DNA of 34,538 nucleotides, taken from Lentisphaeria bacterium. GTDB taxonomy: Bacteria > Verrucomicrobiota > Lentisphaeria > Victivallales > Victivallaceae. Under the pieces are notes generated by a model. That model was not told the origin of the DNA and ran no database searches. It worked only from the letters and a program-made list of their open reading frames with translations. Shown piece by piece: positions 21,798-30,736 of the stretch. Each line of letters starts with the position of its first letter. Position 1 is the stretch's first letter. The position numbers were made by a program, and so were the translations under genes. The stretch lies in the NCBI GenBank assembly GCA_017454215.1, contig JAFTDL010000350.1:1-34538 (forward strand), read 5' to 3'.

Positions 21798-22742
21798 TCA
21801 ATCGGGAAAGCCGTTTTTGAGATACTCCCGGTAACGGTCGTAGAGGTGATGCGCCGAGGGATACATGCTGTTGGGACTCATGAAGTGCGAAAACTCGAAG
21901 GTGAGCGCCTTTGTCACCCCGGCGCTTTCCGCGGCTTTGAGTTTTATCATCAGCTTCTCCCACTTGATGGGCAGAAAACGGATGGGCATATCCCGGTCGA
22001 AAGTCTCGCTGTTGGTCCAAAGCTCTATGCCGTATTTATCCGCGAGCCGCTTGTTGAGCAGCATCGCAGGGCCCAGTTCCTCGTAGGTCACGTGGCCGTC
22101 CTGAAAGGCGATGATGTCCACGTTGCCCGCAACGGTCTTCATGATGTGATTCCATGAGCGCTCGTGATCCTCGAAATCCAGATCGTGAGCGCCGGGCTCA
22201 TTGGGCATCCATGCCTTTCTGCCCAGCATTCCCGGAGAGATGAGCGTCGGCAGATTTCCGGAGATCTGCTTGCAGTAGCTGCTGTAACGCAGGAACTCCT
22301 GAACGATCCGCTCGTCCCGTACGGCGATCTCCTTCGACAGATACCAGCCCTTGAATGCTTTCCTGTGCCCGTAGCGGGACCAGACTTCGTCGAGCAGGCG
22401 GCGCTCCACATCCCACCGGGCCTCGAGATCGACGTCCCCGTACTGGCCGTTGTGACGCAGCGCGTAGGTCCCGAAAAAGTACCGCATACCGTATTTTTCG
22501 GCCAGATCGAGGAACATGTCGACCAGATCGACGGGCGGCTTGTAACAGCCGAACTCGCCGACGAGTATCTTCGACGGATAGGTGATGAATTTTTCCAGTC
22601 CGGAACGGATCATGATGACCGTGTCGATCCCGATCGCCTTCATGGCGGCGAAATCCCGGTCCCACTCTTCCCTGCCCCAGTTCTGATGGGGGATGTCCGA
22701 ACTGATCTCGTCGAGAAACGTTGCTTTTATCCGAATGCCCAT
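21798..22742 (-). CDS. DUF4434-type TIM-barrel protein (putative glycoside hydrolase)
   Basis: A 314-aa protein without signal peptide resembling DUF4434 proteins: IKATFLDEISSDIPHQNWG at the start, then the first barrel strand DFAAMKAIGIDTVIMIRSG, LAEKYGMRYFFGTYALR, AFKGWYLSKEIAVRDE (a conserved tryptophan and glutamate pair at a barrel strand end), NVDIIAFQDGHVTYEEL and KALTFEFSHFMSPNS. The family is thought to include sugar-degrading enzymes, with glutamates in GWYLSKE and near FQDG as candidate catalytic residues; activity is not established. AGAAAGG lies upstream of the ATG. It follows the 1774-aa mosaic gene by 13 bp and is clearly in its operon, suggesting intracellular processing of material the exported protein handles outside. 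Confidence 0.75.
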   Translation of the reverse strand: MGIRIKATFLDEISSDIPHQNWGREEWDRDFAAMKAIGIDTVIMIRSGLEKFITYPSKILVGEFGCYKPPVDLVDMFLDLAEKYGMRYFFGTYALRHNGQYGDVDLEARWDVERRLLDEVWSRYGHRKAFKGWYLSKEIAVRDERIVQEFLRYSSYCKQISGNLPTLISPGMLGRKAWMPNEPGAHDLDFEDHERSWNHIMKTVAGNVDIIAFQDGHVTYEELGPAMLLNKRLADKYGIELWTNSETFDRDMPIRFLPIKWEKLMIKLKAAESAGVTKALTFEFSHFMSPNSMYPSAHHLYDRYREYLKNGFPD

Positions 22743-22755
22743 AACTGCCTTTCTC

Positions 22756-25700
22756 TCATTTTGAGGTGAATACGTAAACAGAACCGTTCAGAGTGACGGC
22801 GACGACGGTGTTTCCGGAGACGGCGGCCTGAGCCATGATCTGGGAGTCCAGCTGCGCCTGCCAGAGGCGTTTTCCGGAAGCAAGATCAAGCGCGTACAGT
22901 TTGCCGTCGAGGGCGCCGCAGATCACGGTGTTTCCCGCGACGACGGGCGTCGCCGAAATCTCCGCGTATCCGTTTCTGTGACAGGGCGTCGACGGGATCA
23001 GGGCCCGTCCGGGTTTGAAATGCCATACCGGTCTGAGGGTCGCTCTGTCGAGCGCATGCAGTCCGTCGGGAGAGCCGAAAACGATGATCTTTTCGGTCAC
23101 GGCGGGAGCGGACGCCGTCTCCATGCCGGCGGGCTTGTCCGTCTCCTGAAGGATCCTTCCGTCGGCGGGATCTATGACGAAGAACTTCTTTCTGCCCTTG
23201 AAATAGATCTTTCCGTCAGCGTATACGGGAGAGGCATCCAGATAGGTGAAGTCCCTCCCCCGGGCCAGAGTCCAGAGGATCCTGCCGGTCGCCGTGTCGA
23301 AACCCTTCAACCCGTACCGCCAGGAGACGCCGGAAACGCCCACGCGGCCCGCGACGGCGACGCCGCCCGTCCAGACGCCGCCCGTCTCACGGGTGGTCCT
23401 GCCCTGATAACGGATCTTTCCCGCGGCGCAGTCGACAAGGATGGGCGCTTCGTTGTAAAGATAGAGCGTCCCGTCGTCCACGACCGCGGCGCCGTACATG
23501 CCGTTGGTCTTTTCCACGTCGGCGACGGAGGTATTCCAGAGGATCCTGCCGTCGCTCCGGCGCAATGCGGTGATCTTGCCGTCCGCGCCGCAGACATCGA
23601 CGGCTTTGTCGTCACAGGCCGCGCCGCCCCTGACCGCCGCGCCGACGGTCCCTTTCCAGAGGAGCTTCCCGCTGGAAGCGTCAAAGGCAAAAACTGCGGA
23701 ATTTTCCGCCGTGTCGTTGTCGCTGACCGTGACGAAGATCCTGCCGCCGGAGATGACGGGACAGGCGTGGTGGATCGTTCCGCCCGTCTCCGCTTTCCAG
23801 CGGAGCAGAAGAGGCGTGCCGATCTTCCCGGGCACGACCGCGTTGCGGCTGCTGCCGCGTCCGGACATGAGGTAGGGCGAACCGAGTTTCACTTCCGGCG
23901 CGGCGGGGTCGGGAGACACGACGGGGCCGCCGATCTTCCCGGGATTGGAATAGACCGTTTCCGAAACAAGTTTGCCGTTCTTTTCCCTGAAAACGCGGAA
24001 AGCCCGCGGCGAACCGTCCAGTCCGCCGCTGGGCGCGGGGGAACACTCCCAGACCGGAATGCCGTTGAACTTGCGGCAGAGCAGACTGTGGGTGTGTCCG
24101 CAGATGAAGCCCGCGATCTTTTCAGCGTGTTCGGCCATGAGGTGCTCGATCACCCGGTCGCCGTACTGGGGCGGTTCGTGCCGGTGGATGACGATCTTTT
24201 TACCGGCGGGAAGCAGAGCAAGCTCCTTCTTCAGCCAGTTGAACTGGTTGTCGGGATCCTTGAGATTCCGCTCGTAGACGATGTTGTAAAAGCGGAAATT
24301 TCCGGCGTCGAAGGAATAGTAGACGGGGCCGAAATTCCTTTCGTAGGCCTCGCGGGTGTGCTCGGTCCCCTTCTTTTCCATATCGTGATTGCCGGGAATG
24401 ACGAAGACGTCCATCCCGCACAGCGGCATTTTTTCGGCATGAACGGGGAGCCCCACGATGTCGCCGGAGTGGAGCAGAAAATCGCCTTTCTCCTTCCGGC
24501 CGAGATCGGTGATCTCGCCCAGCCAGGCCTCGGGCCCGCGGGCCTCGGTGTCCGTCACCTGAAAGAACACCAGCTGACGTTTTCCCGCAGGAACGAAGCC
24601 GAAGTCGAAATCGTCGTCGCCGACGCTGCGGAAGAAGGGAGTGCTGCACCTGTATCCTGCCGGACGGGAAGCGAAAACAAATCTTGCGTCCGAGTTTTTG
24701 GCGAGCTTGAACGTGCCGTCGTCACCGGTCCGCACGATGTCGATGCCGTCGGAGACGCGGACTCCGGCAAGACCTTTTTCGCCGTCGTCCCGTTTGCCGT
24801 TGCCGTTTTTATCTTCGAAGACGATCCCCGAGAATCCATCTGTTTTCTTTTTCGCCTTCCCGACGCCGCGATAAGTCACGCTCTGGCGGATGACGGCTTT
24901 CCCGCCGTGAGGAATACTGAAGTGATAAAGCGGTTCGACCGTGAGGATCCCGGCGCTTTCCCGCCACAGATGAACGCCGTAGCAGCCGTCGTCGAACCTG
25001 AAGTCGAGCGCTTCCTCTTCCCCGAAGGAGTTGACGGCAAAGCGGACCTTTGCCCCGTTCCATATCTCTTTTTTTGCGTTGGAGAACTCAAGGCGCGCGT
25101 CCTTTCTGTGCCACACGGTCGAAGTCTGGGAACCGACGGGAGAAGAGAGTTTTCCCGAAGTGACGCAGGCGGCGGCGCCCGGCAGCTTTCCCTCGGGGAT
25201 CAGCGTTCCCGGCATCGGAACGTTGCGCACGCGGGCGAAGAATTCGATCGCCTTGCCGGAACCGGCCTTGTTGACGATCTCCCATTCGCAGACAACGGTA
25301 TTTCCCTTGTCGGCAAGAGAGATCCGCTTGACGATCTCCACGCCGGTATACTTTTCAGCCTCGGGATTGGCGTCCTCGGGCGCAGGGACCGTATAGCGGA
25401 ATTCGAGTGCATCCCCCCTCTTCCGGGCGGAGAACTTCTCCCTTCCGGAGATGAAAGGAACGACCAGTTCCGCCAGACGGCCGCGGGTCCCCCGCAGGGC
25501 CAGCAGGTCGTTGAGCGCCGAAGCGGCGGAACGCCAGCCCATGACAAGAGCCTGATCGTCGGCGTTGATGTAGATGCTGCGCCTGGAGCCGGAGAGCTTG
25601 AGCATAGCCAGTTTTTCGGGCCGCAGCAGACCGTGGGCGAGAGGATCCTTTTCCGCGGTCTTTCCCGACGCGGAGTCGAGAAATTTCCGCAGTTCTTCGG

Positions 25701-28080
25701 TGATCCTGCCCGCGGGAGAAACTTTGTTTTCGGCGGAAAACTCCCAGATACCCGCATCGCAGGCTGCGATCCTGACCAGATATTTTCCGTCGGAAGTCCG
25801 TTCCGGCGCGGAGCATCCGGCAAGCGCGGCGGGAACGAGCCGTCCGTCTTGGGGTGCAAGTTCGAGAATGACCTTTTCCCCGGGGTGATAGTTGATGACC
25901 GTCAGCAGAAGTCTGTCCCCCAGTTTGTGCACGGTATGACGCAGACTGGGAATGAAATCCGGCGTCTGCATGACGAAACTGGCGCCGTCGTCGGAGAGTT
26001 TGCGCCGGACCGTGTTTTTCGGGGAAAAAGCAATGGCATCGTCGCAGCGGGTGCCCTCCATGTAGAATTTTTCGGCCGCCCCGACGATGCGGGAAGCCCG
26101 GAGCATTTCGTGCAGATAGGCGCCGTCGAAAAGGTCGTTGGGCCAGAAACCGATGCCGACGCCTCCCAGCATGGCGGTGGCGACGATGTTGAGTTTCACG
26201 CCGCGGGGCGTATAGCGGATGTAAAACCGGCGGGAGACCTCGGAGGGGTCGATGAAGGGGAACCACGGCGTCTTCAGATGCCTGCGGTTGAACGCGGTGG
26301 AGTCGTAGTAGCTGACGCCCTCGAAATAGGGCATGTTGCGCATGTAGTCCAGACCGATGTTGTCGCTCAGGCGGCAGTCGACGGCGCACCAGTCGGCGAT
26401 CAGGGAACCGGTGTGGTGCAGGATGTCGGTTACCAGAGTGACTTTTTTCCCGGGGAAGTGCTTGCGGCAGGCGTCGTAATAGCGCTGAATGATCTGCCGG
26501 TGCTGTTCGATCCTGAACTTGAACCAGACGCCCGTGTGCCGGGAGAGGATCTGCTCCATGGTCGGAACAGTCTTCATTCCGGCGAACTTTGCGAACTCTT
26601 TCCGGCAGACCGGGCAGAAGCAATGGCGGGTGGGATGAGGTTCGAGGTCGAGATCGATGAGGTCCATTTCGGTTTTCCCCGCACGCTCGCGCAGGAGCGT
26701 GGGAAAATAGTTGTCCCAGATGAAGCCTTCCGGGTCGCGGATCAGGTAGTCCGGGCAGAGCACCTCGTCGGGTTCCCGGGGTGACCGGGGAAAGCAGAGC
26801 GGGAATTTAACGTTCCGCGCCTTGGGATCATTGCGTTTCCACCGGGCGAACCCCAGCCGCGGCATGCTGCCCATGCTGCCGACCTCCATGGATTTCAGGA
26901 AGCCCGCCGTCTTCCTGCGCAGGACCTCCTGATCCGCCCGGCGCCACGCCCATGGGTCGATGCAGATCACCTGCGGAACGGACAGGGCCTTCCAGAGCCT
27001 GATGTGCTGTTCGCCGATCTCGTCGGGCGCCCCGATCAGATTCGGCACGAAGGTGGGACAGATGATGAATTTTTCGGGAACTTTTCCGCCGAGATCCAGC
27101 GGCGGCAGGATCTCGAGAAGCAGCGGCTGCGGCGCATCGCCTTCGGCGTACCACCTGCCGGCCCCCTTCTTCCCGGGCTCGCCCGTCGCCCGGACGAACA
27201 CCCGGTAGGAGTTGTTCCACGCGTTCCAGTCCTTCATCACGTGGGGAGGCAGAACAAAGGTGTAACGGGTCATGCCGCCGGCAAGTTTTTCGCGTTTCGG
27301 CGTTTCGCAGCTCCATTTCCAGACCGCGCCCCTGTCGTCGGCGGGACGGGTGGCGGCGCCGCCGATGATCTCGAAGCCTTTGGGAAGTTCAAAGAAAACG
27401 GACTGCGCTTTTGCCGGTCTCTTTCCTGTGAAAGTGCAGTCCCAGGTGGCGATGAAATTCTGTGAAACGCGGTACTTCCCGTTCTGAAAGTCAACGGGGA
27501 CGAGATTCAATCTTTTTTTTTTTACCGCAGGCCCGGAAGCGGCCGCCTTTTCATCGACCTCTTCGAGACTTATATCGGCAAAATCGGCGGTCCCCGTGGC
27601 CAGAGTCAGCGAAAGATAAAACGAAACGAGCTGATCGGGTTTCAGCTTTCCCGTCTTGAAGGTGCCCCGGTAGTCGGTCCAGCCGGTGGTGCCTTCGATC
27701 ATGTGCCACATTTGGGCGGCGCCGGAGAAAAGATACTTCCCGGCCGTGACGCTGATGCCCGCGCCGTGGGTGACCTTGTTGGGCAGCTGGCGCTTCACGT
27801 CCTTCGTCCGCATGCGGAACTTGAACATGTAGGTGGCGTCGGGTTTGAGTTTCAGCTGCTGGACGCAGAGCGTCGCGAACTTGTTGTCCTTGTCGTTGGT
27901 GAGCGAGAGGTAAAATCCGTCGCCCTCCTTCTTTATCTCGCGGGTGCCGGGACTTTTGGTCCACGAACCGAAAGTCCAGGATTTCGCGCCGTTGGTGAAT
28001 TTGCCGTTCTGAAGCAGATTCTCCCCCGCCTGCAGGGCGAAAAGGCACAGCAGGACCCAGATGACAGCAGTCTTTTTCAT
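22756..28080 (-). CDS. Giant secreted mosaic protein: CBM-like, glycosidase-like barrel, phosphoesterase, PQQ-type propeller
   Basis: A 1774-aa protein with a signal peptide (MKKTAVIWVLLCLFALQA). Modules by eye: a carbohydrate-binding-like beta-sandwich at 19-175 (ENLLQNGKFTNGAKSW...); a second sandwich at about 190-335; a glycosidase-like barrel at about 336-700, with DLDLEPHP near 475 and the FCPVCRKEF cysteine pair near 484; beta-rich regions to about 1070; an SdrD-B-like/phosphoesterase N-terminal domain at 1080-1150 (FEDKNGNGKRDDGE); a calcineurin-like phosphoesterase at 1168-1360 (VTDTEA, LHSGDIVG, IPGNHDM near 1229, IHRHEPP, GHTHS near 1327); and a PQQ-type beta-propeller at 1417-1774 with repeated LYALDLASGKRLWQ-like blades. 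In the phosphoesterase the first metal motif is DTE instead of DxH. The N-terminal module is duplicated in the 175-aa protein at 29127-29654. It is co-transcribed with the pseudopilin-like gene 30 bp upstream. Confidence 0.8.
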   Translation of the reverse strand: MKKTAVIWVLLCLFALQAGENLLQNGKFTNGAKSWTFGSWTKSPGTREIKKEGDGFYLSLTNDKDNKFATLCVQQLKLKPDATYMFKFRMRTKDVKRQLPNKVTHGAGISVTAGKYLFSGAAQMWHMIEGTTGWTDYRGTFKTGKLKPDQLVSFYLSLTLATGTADFADISLEEVDEKAAASGPAVKKKRLNLVPVDFQNGKYRVSQNFIATWDCTFTGKRPAKAQSVFFELPKGFEIIGGAATRPADDRGAVWKWSCETPKREKLAGGMTRYTFVLPPHVMKDWNAWNNSYRVFVRATGEPGKKGAGRWYAEGDAPQPLLLEILPPLDLGGKVPEKFIICPTFVPNLIGAPDEIGEQHIRLWKALSVPQVICIDPWAWRRADQEVLRRKTAGFLKSMEVGSMGSMPRLGFARWKRNDPKARNVKFPLCFPRSPREPDEVLCPDYLIRDPEGFIWDNYFPTLLRERAGKTEMDLIDLDLEPHPTRHCFCPVCRKEFAKFAGMKTVPTMEQILSRHTGVWFKFRIEQHRQIIQRYYDACRKHFPGKKVTLVTDILHHTGSLIADWCAVDCRLSDNIGLDYMRNMPYFEGVSYYDSTAFNRRHLKTPWFPFIDPSEVSRRFYIRYTPRGVKLNIVATAMLGGVGIGFWPNDLFDGAYLHEMLRASRIVGAAEKFYMEGTRCDDAIAFSPKNTVRRKLSDDGASFVMQTPDFIPSLRHTVHKLGDRLLLTVINYHPGEKVILELAPQDGRLVPAALAGCSAPERTSDGKYLVRIAACDAGIWEFSAENKVSPAGRITEELRKFLDSASGKTAEKDPLAHGLLRPEKLAMLKLSGSRRSIYINADDQALVMGWRSAASALNDLLALRGTRGRLAELVVPFISGREKFSARKRGDALEFRYTVPAPEDANPEAEKYTGVEIVKRISLADKGNTVVCEWEIVNKAGSGKAIEFFARVRNVPMPGTLIPEGKLPGAAACVTSGKLSSPVGSQTSTVWHRKDARLEFSNAKKEIWNGAKVRFAVNSFGEEEALDFRFDDGCYGVHLWRESAGILTVEPLYHFSIPHGGKAVIRQSVTYRGVGKAKKKTDGFSGIVFEDKNGNGKRDDGEKGLAGVRVSDGIDIVRTGDDGTFKLAKNSDARFVFASRPAGYRCSTPFFRSVGDDDFDFGFVPAGKRQLVFFQVTDTEARGPEAWLGEITDLGRKEKGDFLLHSGDIVGLPVHAEKMPLCGMDVFVIPGNHDMEKKGTEHTREAYERNFGPVYYSFDAGNFRFYNIVYERNLKDPDNQFNWLKKELALLPAGKKIVIHRHEPPQYGDRVIEHLMAEHAEKIAGFICGHTHSLLCRKFNGIPVWECSPAPSGGLDGSPRAFRVFREKNGKLVSETVYSNPGKIGGPVVSPDPAAPEVKLGSPYLMSGRGSSRNAVVPGKIGTPLLLRWKAETGGTIHHACPVISGGRIFVTVSDNDTAENSAVFAFDASSGKLLWKGTVGAAVRGGAACDDKAVDVCGADGKITALRRSDGRILWNTSVADVEKTNGMYGAAVVDDGTLYLYNEAPILVDCAAGKIRYQGRTTRETGGVWTGGVAVAGRVGVSGVSWRYGLKGFDTATGRILWTLARGRDFTYLDASPVYADGKIYFKGRKKFFVIDPADGRILQETDKPAGMETASAPAVTEKIIVFGSPDGLHALDRATLRPVWHFKPGRALIPSTPCHRNGYAEISATPVVAGNTVICGALDGKLYALDLASGKRLWQAQLDSQIMAQAAVSGNTVVAVTLNGSVYVFTSK

Positions 28081-28110: not shown

Positions 28111-28896
28111 TCAGAGCGCCTTGATCGAACCGTGAACCTTATAATAGTCGAATCCGACCTTGAGCGGAACTTTGTAGTCGCTTGCGGTCATGCCGTCCTT
28201 GAGGAACACGCCCCCTGTTCTGGCCCCGGCGTGTCCGTCCATGTACGCCACCTGACATCTGCCGTTGGAAACGGGAGAAACGGTGCTGCCGTAAGGACGG
28301 GTCTCGCTGGCGCCGTGGCGGTAGCGGGCATAAAGCAGACTGGCGGCGACGATCTGATTTTTCACACCGCTGTCGTAGCAGTAGATCGCCTTGGTCGCCT
28401 GCGTGAGAGAAGTCGTCTTGCGGAAAAAGTTGTAATCGGCAAGTGAGATATACCCGGCCAGCCACGGATTGACTGCATAGTGGGTATAGCGGAAATCATC
28501 GCTCGGGTGGAATTTTCCGGCCTCGGCGGGACAGGCGAAACTGCCGGTGGCGATGTAGCCGTTGTAGGTCAATCCGTATCCCGGACCGCAGACGCTGTGC
28601 GGCTCTCCGTCGGTCTTTCTGCCGGAAAGCAGGCAATACCACAGCCCCCGGTTGCTGTCTCCGTTGCACGAGGGGGTGATCCAGTCGTCGTTCGCCCCTG
28701 CGTACAGCTGGACTCCCGTACCGATCTGCTTCAGGTTGTTCATACAGCTGGAGCTCTTGGCCCTGTCCCGCGCCGACTGCAATGCCGGCATGAGCATGGC
28801 GGCCAATATGGCGATGATGGCGATGACGACCAGGAGCTCGATCAAGGTAAATCCGCTCCGGACATCCTGGGTTTTTCTGCGATCGAACATTTCCAT
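28111..28896 (-). CDS. Type II pseudopilin-like protein (prepilin leader, DUF1559-like)
   Basis: A 261-aa protein with a short basic leader ending in the prepilin peptidase site [19 protein letters not shown], followed by a hydrophobic helix. The globular part keeps marks of the DUF1559/xcpT-like family expanded in Lentisphaerota and Planctomycetes: [18 protein letters not shown] after the helix and a C-terminal [12 protein letters not shown]. Cleaved after Gly and methylated at Phe, it would anchor in the inner membrane and may form part of a secretion pseudopilus. The ATG at 28896 has AAGGAG eight bases upstream and a textbook promoter; the frame continues far upstream but that part is non-coding. 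It is the first gene of the giant-protein operon. Confidence 0.88.
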
Positions 28897-29126: not shown

Positions 29127-29654
29127 CTACTTCACCTTCTCCACCGATATGTCGGTGAAATCGGCCGAACCGGAACAAAGAGTCAGGCTCAAGTAAAGGG
29201 AAACCGGTTTGTCTCCGACCTTTCCCGAGTTGAAGCGCCCCTGATAAACGGTCCGCCCGGTGGTGCCTTCGATATTGAACCACCTCTGCGAAGCTCCGGA
29301 AAAAATATCCCGTCCGCAGGTGATGCTTATCCCGGCGCCGTGATTGACCTTGCCCGGCGTGTGGCGTCTCACGTCTCTGGTCCGCATGGAGAACTTATAC
29401 TGATACTCCGTGTCGGGTTCCAGTCTGATGTGCTGGACGCACATGGTGGAGAACCCGGTATCGCCCGGATTGAAAAGCGTGATGAATTTTTTGCCGTTCT
29501 CGTCACCCAGTTTTTTTCCGCCGGGACTTTTTGTCCACGCGGAGAAGGACCAGCCTTTCTCCACTTGGGTCAGATCGCCGTTCCGCACCAGATTTTCCGC
29601 CGACACCGCGACAGCGGCGGATACGGCTGCGAGAAGAAGATACTTTTTAAGCAT
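29127..29654 (-). CDS. Exported stand-alone CBM-like domain protein, paralogue of the giant protein's N-terminus
   Basis: A 175-aa protein: signal peptide ([19 protein letters not shown]), then a single beta-sandwich domain resembling CBM4/9-type modules. By eye about half of its residues match residues 19-175 of the 1774-aa protein, including ENLxxNG, WTKSPG, MRTxDVxR, NHGAGIS/THGAGIS, IEGTTG and YLSLTL. It holds nothing beyond this module, so it would bind but not cut. The real start is ATG 29654 (AAGGG upstream); the frame extends to 30047, but that part opposes the AraC gene. It has its own promoter and terminator and is divergent from the AraC-type regulator. Confidence 0.8.
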
Positions 29655-29890: not shown

Positions 29891-30736
29891 ATGTATCAGT
29901 TCGATCTTGACATATCACAGCTGAAACGGGAAAGCGGTTTTCCCTACCGTCTTTCCAAAGTTTTCTACTGCCGCGATCTGGTCCTCCACGCCAGCCGGGG
30001 ATACGCGCCGAGCGATCACTTCGAGGTGTGTCTGCGGCTCGAATCAAAGTCCGCCGTGTGCGAAGACATCATCAACGGCGAGCCGATCCATCTGCCCTTC
30101 CCTCATGCCGTCTGGAAACTGCCGCAGCAGACGATCCTGACGCGGGACGAACGCGGCAGAGACGTTCTGGCGCTGCTCTATCCCCCCGAGAGCGTGGAGC
30201 TTTTCAGACAGGCGGACATGATCCCGCCCCGGGGCGACCTGCCCTTCACGGTCACGCCGCAGATATCTTCGATCATGGACAAGATCGTCAGTCTGGTGAA
30301 GGGAATGAATTCCGCCGGAGTTGCGGACAAACTCGACTGGCTGGGATTTTCTCTCATAAAAGAGGTCCTTATGGCCGGCCGGCAGGAAACAGTGACGCAG
30401 ACGATGGAGCAGAAAATGAACGACATCGCCCTGTGGCTGACTGTCCATTGCGCGGAGCCCCCCGAGTTTCATGTTCTCGCCGAGCAGAACGACATGTCCT
30501 ATACGTGCTTCTACCGGGAATGGCGGAGATTTTTCGACGTGACGCCTCTGCAGTTCGTCATCAACGCCCGCCTGAAGACCGCGGCCGGTCTGCTGGAGGG
30601 AACGGACATACCGATTTCGCGGATCGTCAGGATCGTCAATTTTTCGGGAACTTACGCATTCTACCGCAGATTCCGCGAAAAATACGGCGTTTCTCCCCGG
30701 CAGTACCGGGAGAATTTCCGCGCCGGAACATTCTGA
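29891..30736 (+). CDS. AraC-family transcriptional regulator
   Basis: A 281-aa protein. The N-terminal 150 residues form a cupin-like sensory domain (HLPFPHAVWKLPQQTI, ALLYPPESVELFR). The C-terminal domain has two helix-turn-helix units: FHVLAEQNDMSYTCFYREWR and ISRIVRIVNFSGTYAFYRRF, followed by REKYGVSPRQYRENF, the family's hallmark. Such regulators usually sense a sugar or related small molecule. Its position divergent from the CBM-like gene, and upstream of the giant-protein operon in the same direction as that gene, makes regulation of both plausible but unproven. GAGGGG lies about eleven bases before the ATG. Confidence 0.88.
   Translation: MYQFDLDISQLKRESGFPYRLSKVFYCRDLVLHASRGYAPSDHFEVCLRLESKSAVCEDIINGEPIHLPFPHAVWKLPQQTILTRDERGRDVLALLYPPESVELFRQADMIPPRGDLPFTVTPQISSIMDKIVSLVKGMNSAGVADKLDWLGFSLIKEVLMAGRQETVTQTMEQKMNDIALWLTVHCAEPPEFHVLAEQNDMSYTCFYREWRRFFDVTPLQFVINARLKTAAGLLEGTDIPISRIVRIVNFSGTYAFYRRFREKYGVSPRQYRENFRAGTF

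Follow-up and report, generated by a model that had tools for sequence, protein, structure and literature searches.

A fused Lentisphaeria gene joining a glycosidase-like barrel to a phosphoesterase-propeller unit, and its possible action on phosphorylated glycans

Why does a single exported protein carry a sugar-binding module, a glycosidase-like barrel, a phosphoesterase and a propeller, and do these modules act on the same substrate? The question is raised by a gene of a gut Lentisphaerota bacterium in the window analyzed here (the whole stretch of 34,538 nucleotides of contig JAFTDL010000350.1, Lentisphaeria bacterium, assembly GCA_017454215.1). An open reading frame on the reverse strand (22756..28080), with an ATG start, a TAAGGA sequence 5' of it and zero internal stops, encodes 1774 aa; its modules, given below with their coordinates, all lie on this strand. 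A signal peptide-like N terminus without a lipobox (residues 1–18, 28027..28080, read by eye) is followed by a CBM4/9-like module, a beta-sandwich, a GH-like barrel, a galactose-mutarotase-like domain, a MetallophosN domain, a calcineurin-like phosphoesterase and a BamB-like propeller. The original prediction of one exported protein of 1774 aa agrees with the intact frame and this N terminus, and its reading of the modules was upheld by Pfam, which matched MetallophosN, Metallophos and PQQ_2 and, with a score short of the cut-off, CBM_4_9; about 900 mid-protein residues are without a family in Pfam and NCBIfam scans of the fused protein. The surface anchoring that it proposed found no backing, as inspection by eye showed neither a lipobox cysteine nor a sorting signal at the C terminus. 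It mentioned neither the galactose-mutarotase-like domain nor a D-x-E change in the phosphoesterase.

A full-length orthologue was found in a different species, a goat rumen Lentisphaeria MAG (G032, JAFSTC010000071.1). It is also 1774 aa long, shows 78.2% of protein identity and lies in the same operon, with the DNA collinear across about 14 kb; the module order, which it had been proposed to check in other Lentisphaerota, matches along the whole length. The dN/dS ratio between the window gene and that of G032 is 0.147 overall. Taken singly, eight segments give values of 0.10–0.25, the one at the joint between the barrel and phosphoesterase halves (residues 1079–1165) giving 0.11, and purifying selection thus acts on every domain. 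Among the candidates scored in 60 genomes (own genome included), G032 is the single other one with the full-length gene; 14 genome rows had more than eight candidates, of which eight were scored, and paralogues may be missed there. The combination had been called unusual, and the complete fusion is indeed rare, occurring in two of 288 phylum genomes, G032 and the window's own genome (G000), which is again counted. At E<=1e-20 the phosphoesterase-propeller half was found in 29 genomes of this sample and the barrel half in 16. One scan of genome contigs that reached outside the phylum gave five loci, each with Lentisphaerae or Lentisphaeria in its title, and no description of the same architecture was found in the literature, judged from titles.

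Split relatives point to the origin of the gene. A paralogous operon in the own genome (C49) divides these parts among adjacent genes and preserves their order, which runs pseudopilins, barrel (1168 aa), CBM-MetallophosN-phosphoesterase-propeller (878 aa), DUF4434 (314 aa) and GH28. Trees join the C49 barrel to the fused barrel as its sister (support 100/99) and put the phosphoesterase half of C49 into the clade that is sister to the fused half (support 96/95); judged by its sequence, the window gene is a fusion of two neighboring cistrons. In a close relative (G019), whose contig begins inside the barrel gene at about residue 735, only the barrel half is present; it is 70% identical over residues 764–1079, terminates in a stop codon where the joint would be and is directly followed by DUF4434. 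The phosphoesterase half may have been lost there or gained in the window genome and G032; since G019 keeps the barrel and DUF4434 without it, the coupling of barrel and phosphoesterase is not obligatory. A second fused/split pair is formed by a DUF4838-phosphoesterase-propeller fusion in G013 and adjacent genes in G033 (identity of 52% for DUF4838 and 56% for phosphoesterase-propeller). The predicted coupling of a glycosidase-like module with a phosphoesterase is thereby strengthened, both by the split version in the own genome and by this parallel DUF4838 pair.

The carbohydrate-binding module (approximately residues 20–177, 27550..28023) matches CBM_4_9 (PF02018) over residues 21–157 with an E value of 1.4e-4 and 22.7 bits, under the cut-off of 25.9; homologues and a neighboring CBM-only gene share the module, and a stand-alone CBM by the related G033 locus clears the same cut-off (26.8). 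It is followed by a beta-sandwich to which no family was assigned (about 190–325, 27106..27513, from strands in the model), by the glycosidase-like barrel (about 333–690, 26011..27084) and, behind it, by a C-terminal beta domain read from the secondary structure of the model (about 691–799, 25684..26010). Pfam gave zero barrel matches in 16 members scanned, window included, NCBIfam gave none for the barrel in the window protein, a barrel profile found no PDB chain with the E limit set to 1 or to 10, and no barrel relatives were found in viral contigs. A low-confidence model of residues 333–795 built from six sequences (pLDDT 59.5) matches clan GH-A beta-galactosidases (GH42/GH35) with a Foldseek E value of 2.7e-5, the best Z score being 10.3 to 1kwg (rmsd 5.8, 327 aligned). 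The barrel was not resolved in an earlier model of residues 186–1085 (mean pLDDT 63.9); the Foldseek rows listed for it were mutarotases, antibody folds, periplasmic domains of YidC and a small number of glycosidases, and fold families beyond these may also fit. The model of residues 333–795 gives weak evidence that the barrel may belong to clan GH-A. Across 18 homologues D478 and E480 are conserved in 18 of 18, and P481 and E614 in 17 of 18; E480 is a candidate acid/base and E614 a candidate nucleophile, which would make a plausible catalytic pair. Clan GH-A enzymes carry their two catalytic carboxylates on strands 4 and 7.

The galactose-mutarotase-like beta-supersandwich (about 800–1078, 24847..25683) was recognized from fold matches of the model of residues 186–1085. 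The best row is a NDH-PSI-LHCI chain (Z 16.4, rmsd 3.3, 231 aligned), galactose mutarotases reach Z 14–16, and Foldseek gives an E value of 1.2e-5 to a mutarotase-related protein; GH36 enzymes, also among the matched rows, share this accessory fold.

The fusion joint, where the G019 barrel gene ends, lies immediately ahead of the MetallophosN domain (about 1083–1165, 24586..24834), which matches PF16371 over residues 1099–1146 (E 4.7e-13, 49.6 bits against a cut-off of 35.6). The calcineurin-like phosphoesterase (about 1166–1400, 23881..24585) matches Metallophos PF00149 over residues 1190–1332 (E 1.2e-9, 39.3 bits, above the cut-off of 21.5) and keeps motifs II–V (GD, GNHD, H and GHxH) as GD 1206–1207, GNHD 1230–1233, HRH 1299–1301 and GHTH 1328–1331. 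Canonical Metallophos motif I is D-x-H; the window phosphoesterase departs from it and reads D1177-T-E1179, the glutamate E1179 (24544..24546) replacing the histidine. Absence of the canonical histidine could mean a loss of activity. MetallophosC (PF16370) was not found in the window protein at E up to 1. Among 30 propeller-bearing domains (18 from the genus and family and 12 from the phylum sample), motif I is D-x-E in 27, D-x-Q in two (G015 and G031 C84) and D-x-H in one (G034), whereas the seven propeller-less relatives that make up the rest of the 19 phylum rows all have D-x-H and all have MetallophosC. The association of D-x-E with the propeller over these 19 rows has a Fisher p of 2e-5, in a test that counts kin sequences as independent and omits the three genus and family exceptions (two D-x-Q and one D-x-H); a MetallophosN match in G044 (C352) was left out of the motif comparison. 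Going by this motif, D-x-E phosphoesterases with a propeller are a distinct lineage. The domain is also among the best conserved between the window and G032 proteins (83% of identity, dN/dS 0.10).

The C-terminal propeller (about 1420–1774, 22759..23823) matches PQQ_2 at 4.2e-33, and its closest PDB sequence relatives are BamB chains and 'v31Bagel8', which we take to be a designed propeller. Seven Trp-docking-like motifs were counted, and the propeller probably has eight blades. NCBIfam shows only distant BamB and quinoprotein resemblance in the fused protein, with 92.2 bits for the BamB equivalog TIGR03300 (cut-off 285.2) and 49.2 bits for the PQQ-dependent dehydrogenase family (cut-off 480). 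A vicinal Cys-Cys pair is the hallmark tested for a PQQ-dependent dehydrogenase, and the propeller sequence has none; PQQ-dependent oxidation was rejected on this absence and on scores far under the family cut-off. BamB propellers are protein-binding scaffolds, and a propeller that is BamB-like and devoid of the Cys-Cys pair is therefore read as a scaffold or binding domain and not as a PQQ enzyme. The original suggestion that the propeller may act as a scaffold agrees with this reading.

The partners of the phosphoesterase-propeller unit were surveyed at 18 loci of the genus and family. Six have a catalytic-like module in cis: the barrel in G000 C243 and G032, DUF4838 in G013, G024 and G027 (scanned in the G013 fusion, and deduced for the other two, whose frames measure 1348 and 1346 aa, from this length and their like N termini), and another N terminus in G007. 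Three have the partner in the next gene (barrel in G000 C49, DUF4838 in G033 C20 and G031 C84), two have DUF4838 within three genes (G031 C52 and G003 C39), and one has LamG in cis (G034). Three more have other carbohydrate-type neighbors (G020, G004 and G003 C108), namely an F5/8-CBM9 protein twice, with a GH20 farther along in G004, and a SASA esterase. The last three (G031 C22, G015 and G035) have no carbohydrate-type neighbor and are counted against the reading preferred below. In total, 15 of the 18 loci have carbohydrate-type modules on the chain or close by, and the phosphoesterase-propeller recurs as a partner, fused or adjacent. DUF4838 would be met as a neighbor by chance in about 0.8% of cases in G033 and about 4% in G031, where the adjacency is weak alone because DUF4838 genes are abundant.

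DUF4838 is expanded in the genus, with 99 matches in G013, 48 in G031, 36 in G003, 28 in G000 and 8 in G033. The SASA-type esterase gene adjoins the phosphoesterase-propeller gene in G003 (L086:7310-9625). The G007 gene (L042:7464-12002, 1513 aa) encodes an N terminus that looks glycosidase-like and two CBM-like repeats, both judged by eye, ahead of MetallophosN, phosphoesterase and propeller. Its N-terminal 800 residues have no Pfam or NCBIfam family, and a relationship with the window barrel was rejected (hhalign probability 0.9%).

The genes around the fusion include the pseudopilin-like protein and the DUF4434 protein without a signal peptide that had been predicted for the operon. The DUF4434 gene (21798..22742, reverse strand, 314 aa, no signal peptide seen) begins 13 bases downstream of the fused gene; its product matches PF14488 at 7.5e-70 (236.1 bits, over the cut-off of 30) and PDB entry 4h41, 'putative alpha-L-fucosidase', at 1.5e-106. 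Counting barrel loci at E<=1e-20 among the candidates scored in the 60 genomes (28 loci, weaker rows left out), six have DUF4434 no more than 10 kb from the barrel gene (G000 C243, G000 C49, G032, G019, G007 C110 and G028), and the other 22 have none at that distance on the contig; several barrel contigs end nearby, and a genome has up to ten DUF4434 matches. Upstream lies the pseudopilin-like/DUF1559 gene (28111..28896, reverse strand, N_methyl 1.6e-8), in the same place in G032. DUF1559 prepilin-like genes, recognized by an N-terminal stretch of 10 residues, recur by glycan-enzyme genes in the window, C49, G032, G013, G033, G003, G031 C52 and G020. Farther upstream, a secreted CBM-only protein (29127..29654, reverse strand) has 52% of protein identity to the fusion CBM, with DNA identity of 70–72% in two pieces, and its gene is probably a partial duplicate of the N-terminal end of the fusion; it was not seen at the G032 locus, and a similar CBM-only gene adjoins the G033 phosphoesterase gene (L054:5921-6436). 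A putative AraC-like regulator is divergent (29891..30736, forward strand, read by eye). Pectin-type enzymes lie near the C49 and G032 loci, a hint that the substrate may be a plant cell-wall glycan; none was noticed in the window.

Barrel and phosphoesterase are fused here and encoded by neighboring genes in relatives, which suggests joint action on the same extracellular sugar chain. Our preferred reading, held tentatively and at somewhat less than even confidence, is that the fused chain couples extracellular dephosphorylation of a glycan to glycosidic hydrolysis, with both activities and the common substrate being presumed. The exported chain would bind the glycan via its CBM; the GH-A-like barrel, braced by the mutarotase-like domain, would cleave a glycosidic bond with E480 as putative acid/base and E614 as putative nucleophile, and the two-metal phosphoesterase, with a glutamate in motif I, would take a phosphate ester off the same glycan, which we infer to be phosphorylated. 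The BamB-like propeller may tether the phosphoesterase, either to the substrate or to a partner, and the freed sugar would be imported and possibly acted on inside the cell by the DUF4434 enzyme.

Other explanations have to be weighed against this one. A sequencing error at the joint that merged two genes might be suspected from the split version in the own genome and from the stop that G019 has at the joint, and a joining of two genes by assembly error had been named as what would overturn the prediction. It is extremely improbable and ruled out in practice, because a separate species carries an uninterrupted gene of identical length, with purifying selection acting across the joint. An extracellular scavenger of phosphate or nucleotides, merely co-regulated and co-exported with glycan enzymes so that the two active sites never share a substrate, would explain why three of 18 loci lie away from glycan genes, why G019 manages without the phosphoesterase half and why the unit joins such unlike partners (barrel, DUF4838, LamG and the unrelated G007 N terminus). 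However, the two independent fused/split pairs each have a glycosidase-like partner and the remaining 15 loci are on or near carbohydrate-type modules, and we consider scavenging unlikely.

On the other hand, the D-x-E phosphoesterase might be catalytically changed or dead and, together with the propeller, serve the barrel as a platform for binding or for docking proteins. The near-exclusive split of motif I between propeller-bearing and propeller-less MetallophosC-type domains fits such a platform, as does the scaffold role of the propeller family in BamB. Nevertheless, motifs II–V are kept in the window protein, the domain is among its best conserved, and a glutamate is able to bind metal, so that a platform is distinctly unlikely. 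Coupled dephosphorylation and hydrolysis thus stays the preferred reading. A wider claim, which we regard as doubtful, is that MetallophosN, the D-x-E motif and the propeller together make an undescribed class of extracellular phosphoesterases for phosphate-bearing glycans, repeatedly recruited, on the same chain or in an adjacent gene, by different glycosidase modules of Lentisphaerota, and that with the barrel a glycoside hydrolase family new to science has its founding member.

Work on carbohydrate degradation seldom takes account of the phosphate that gut and plant-cell-wall glycans may carry. Natural fusions in which a phosphoesterase is paired with a glycosidase-like barrel point to substrates requiring the two together, and they offer a single protein for testing. 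In the D-x-E lineage, nature provides a clean variation on a two-metal site that is very common. The barrel family lacks a Pfam model, and it occurs in a phylum, Lentisphaerota, for which glycan systems have been little described.

The domain architecture combines known kinds in a new variation, and the pairing is clear as biology. With MetallophosN-Metallophos-MetallophosC phosphoesterases (PF16371, PF00149, PF16370) the window protein has in common the N-terminal domain, the core and motifs II–V; it differs from them by a BamB-like propeller in place of MetallophosC and by D-x-E in place of D-x-H. BamB and PQQ-repeat propellers are close enough for BamB chains to be among the nearest PDB sequence relatives, whereas the window propeller scores far under the BamB equivalog cut-off, lacks a lipobox and is part of an enzyme chain. 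The barrel resembles clan GH-A beta-galactosidases (GH42 1kwg, GH35) in a weak fold match and in a suitable order of its conserved Glu pair, but its sequence matched neither a PDB chain nor a Pfam family. The downstream DUF4434 product matches 4h41 over its whole length, although it has no visible signal peptide, and the function of 4h41 is the depositor's label. A further parallel is offered by multicatalytic PUL enzymes such as CE15-GH8 of Bacteroides eggerthii (PMC8417218), where, as here, a side-group hydrolase and a glycosidase share one chain in a glycan-utilization locus; the side-group hydrolase is a carbohydrate esterase there, whereas here it is a phosphoesterase with a propeller, in another phylum and joined to a barrel without a family.
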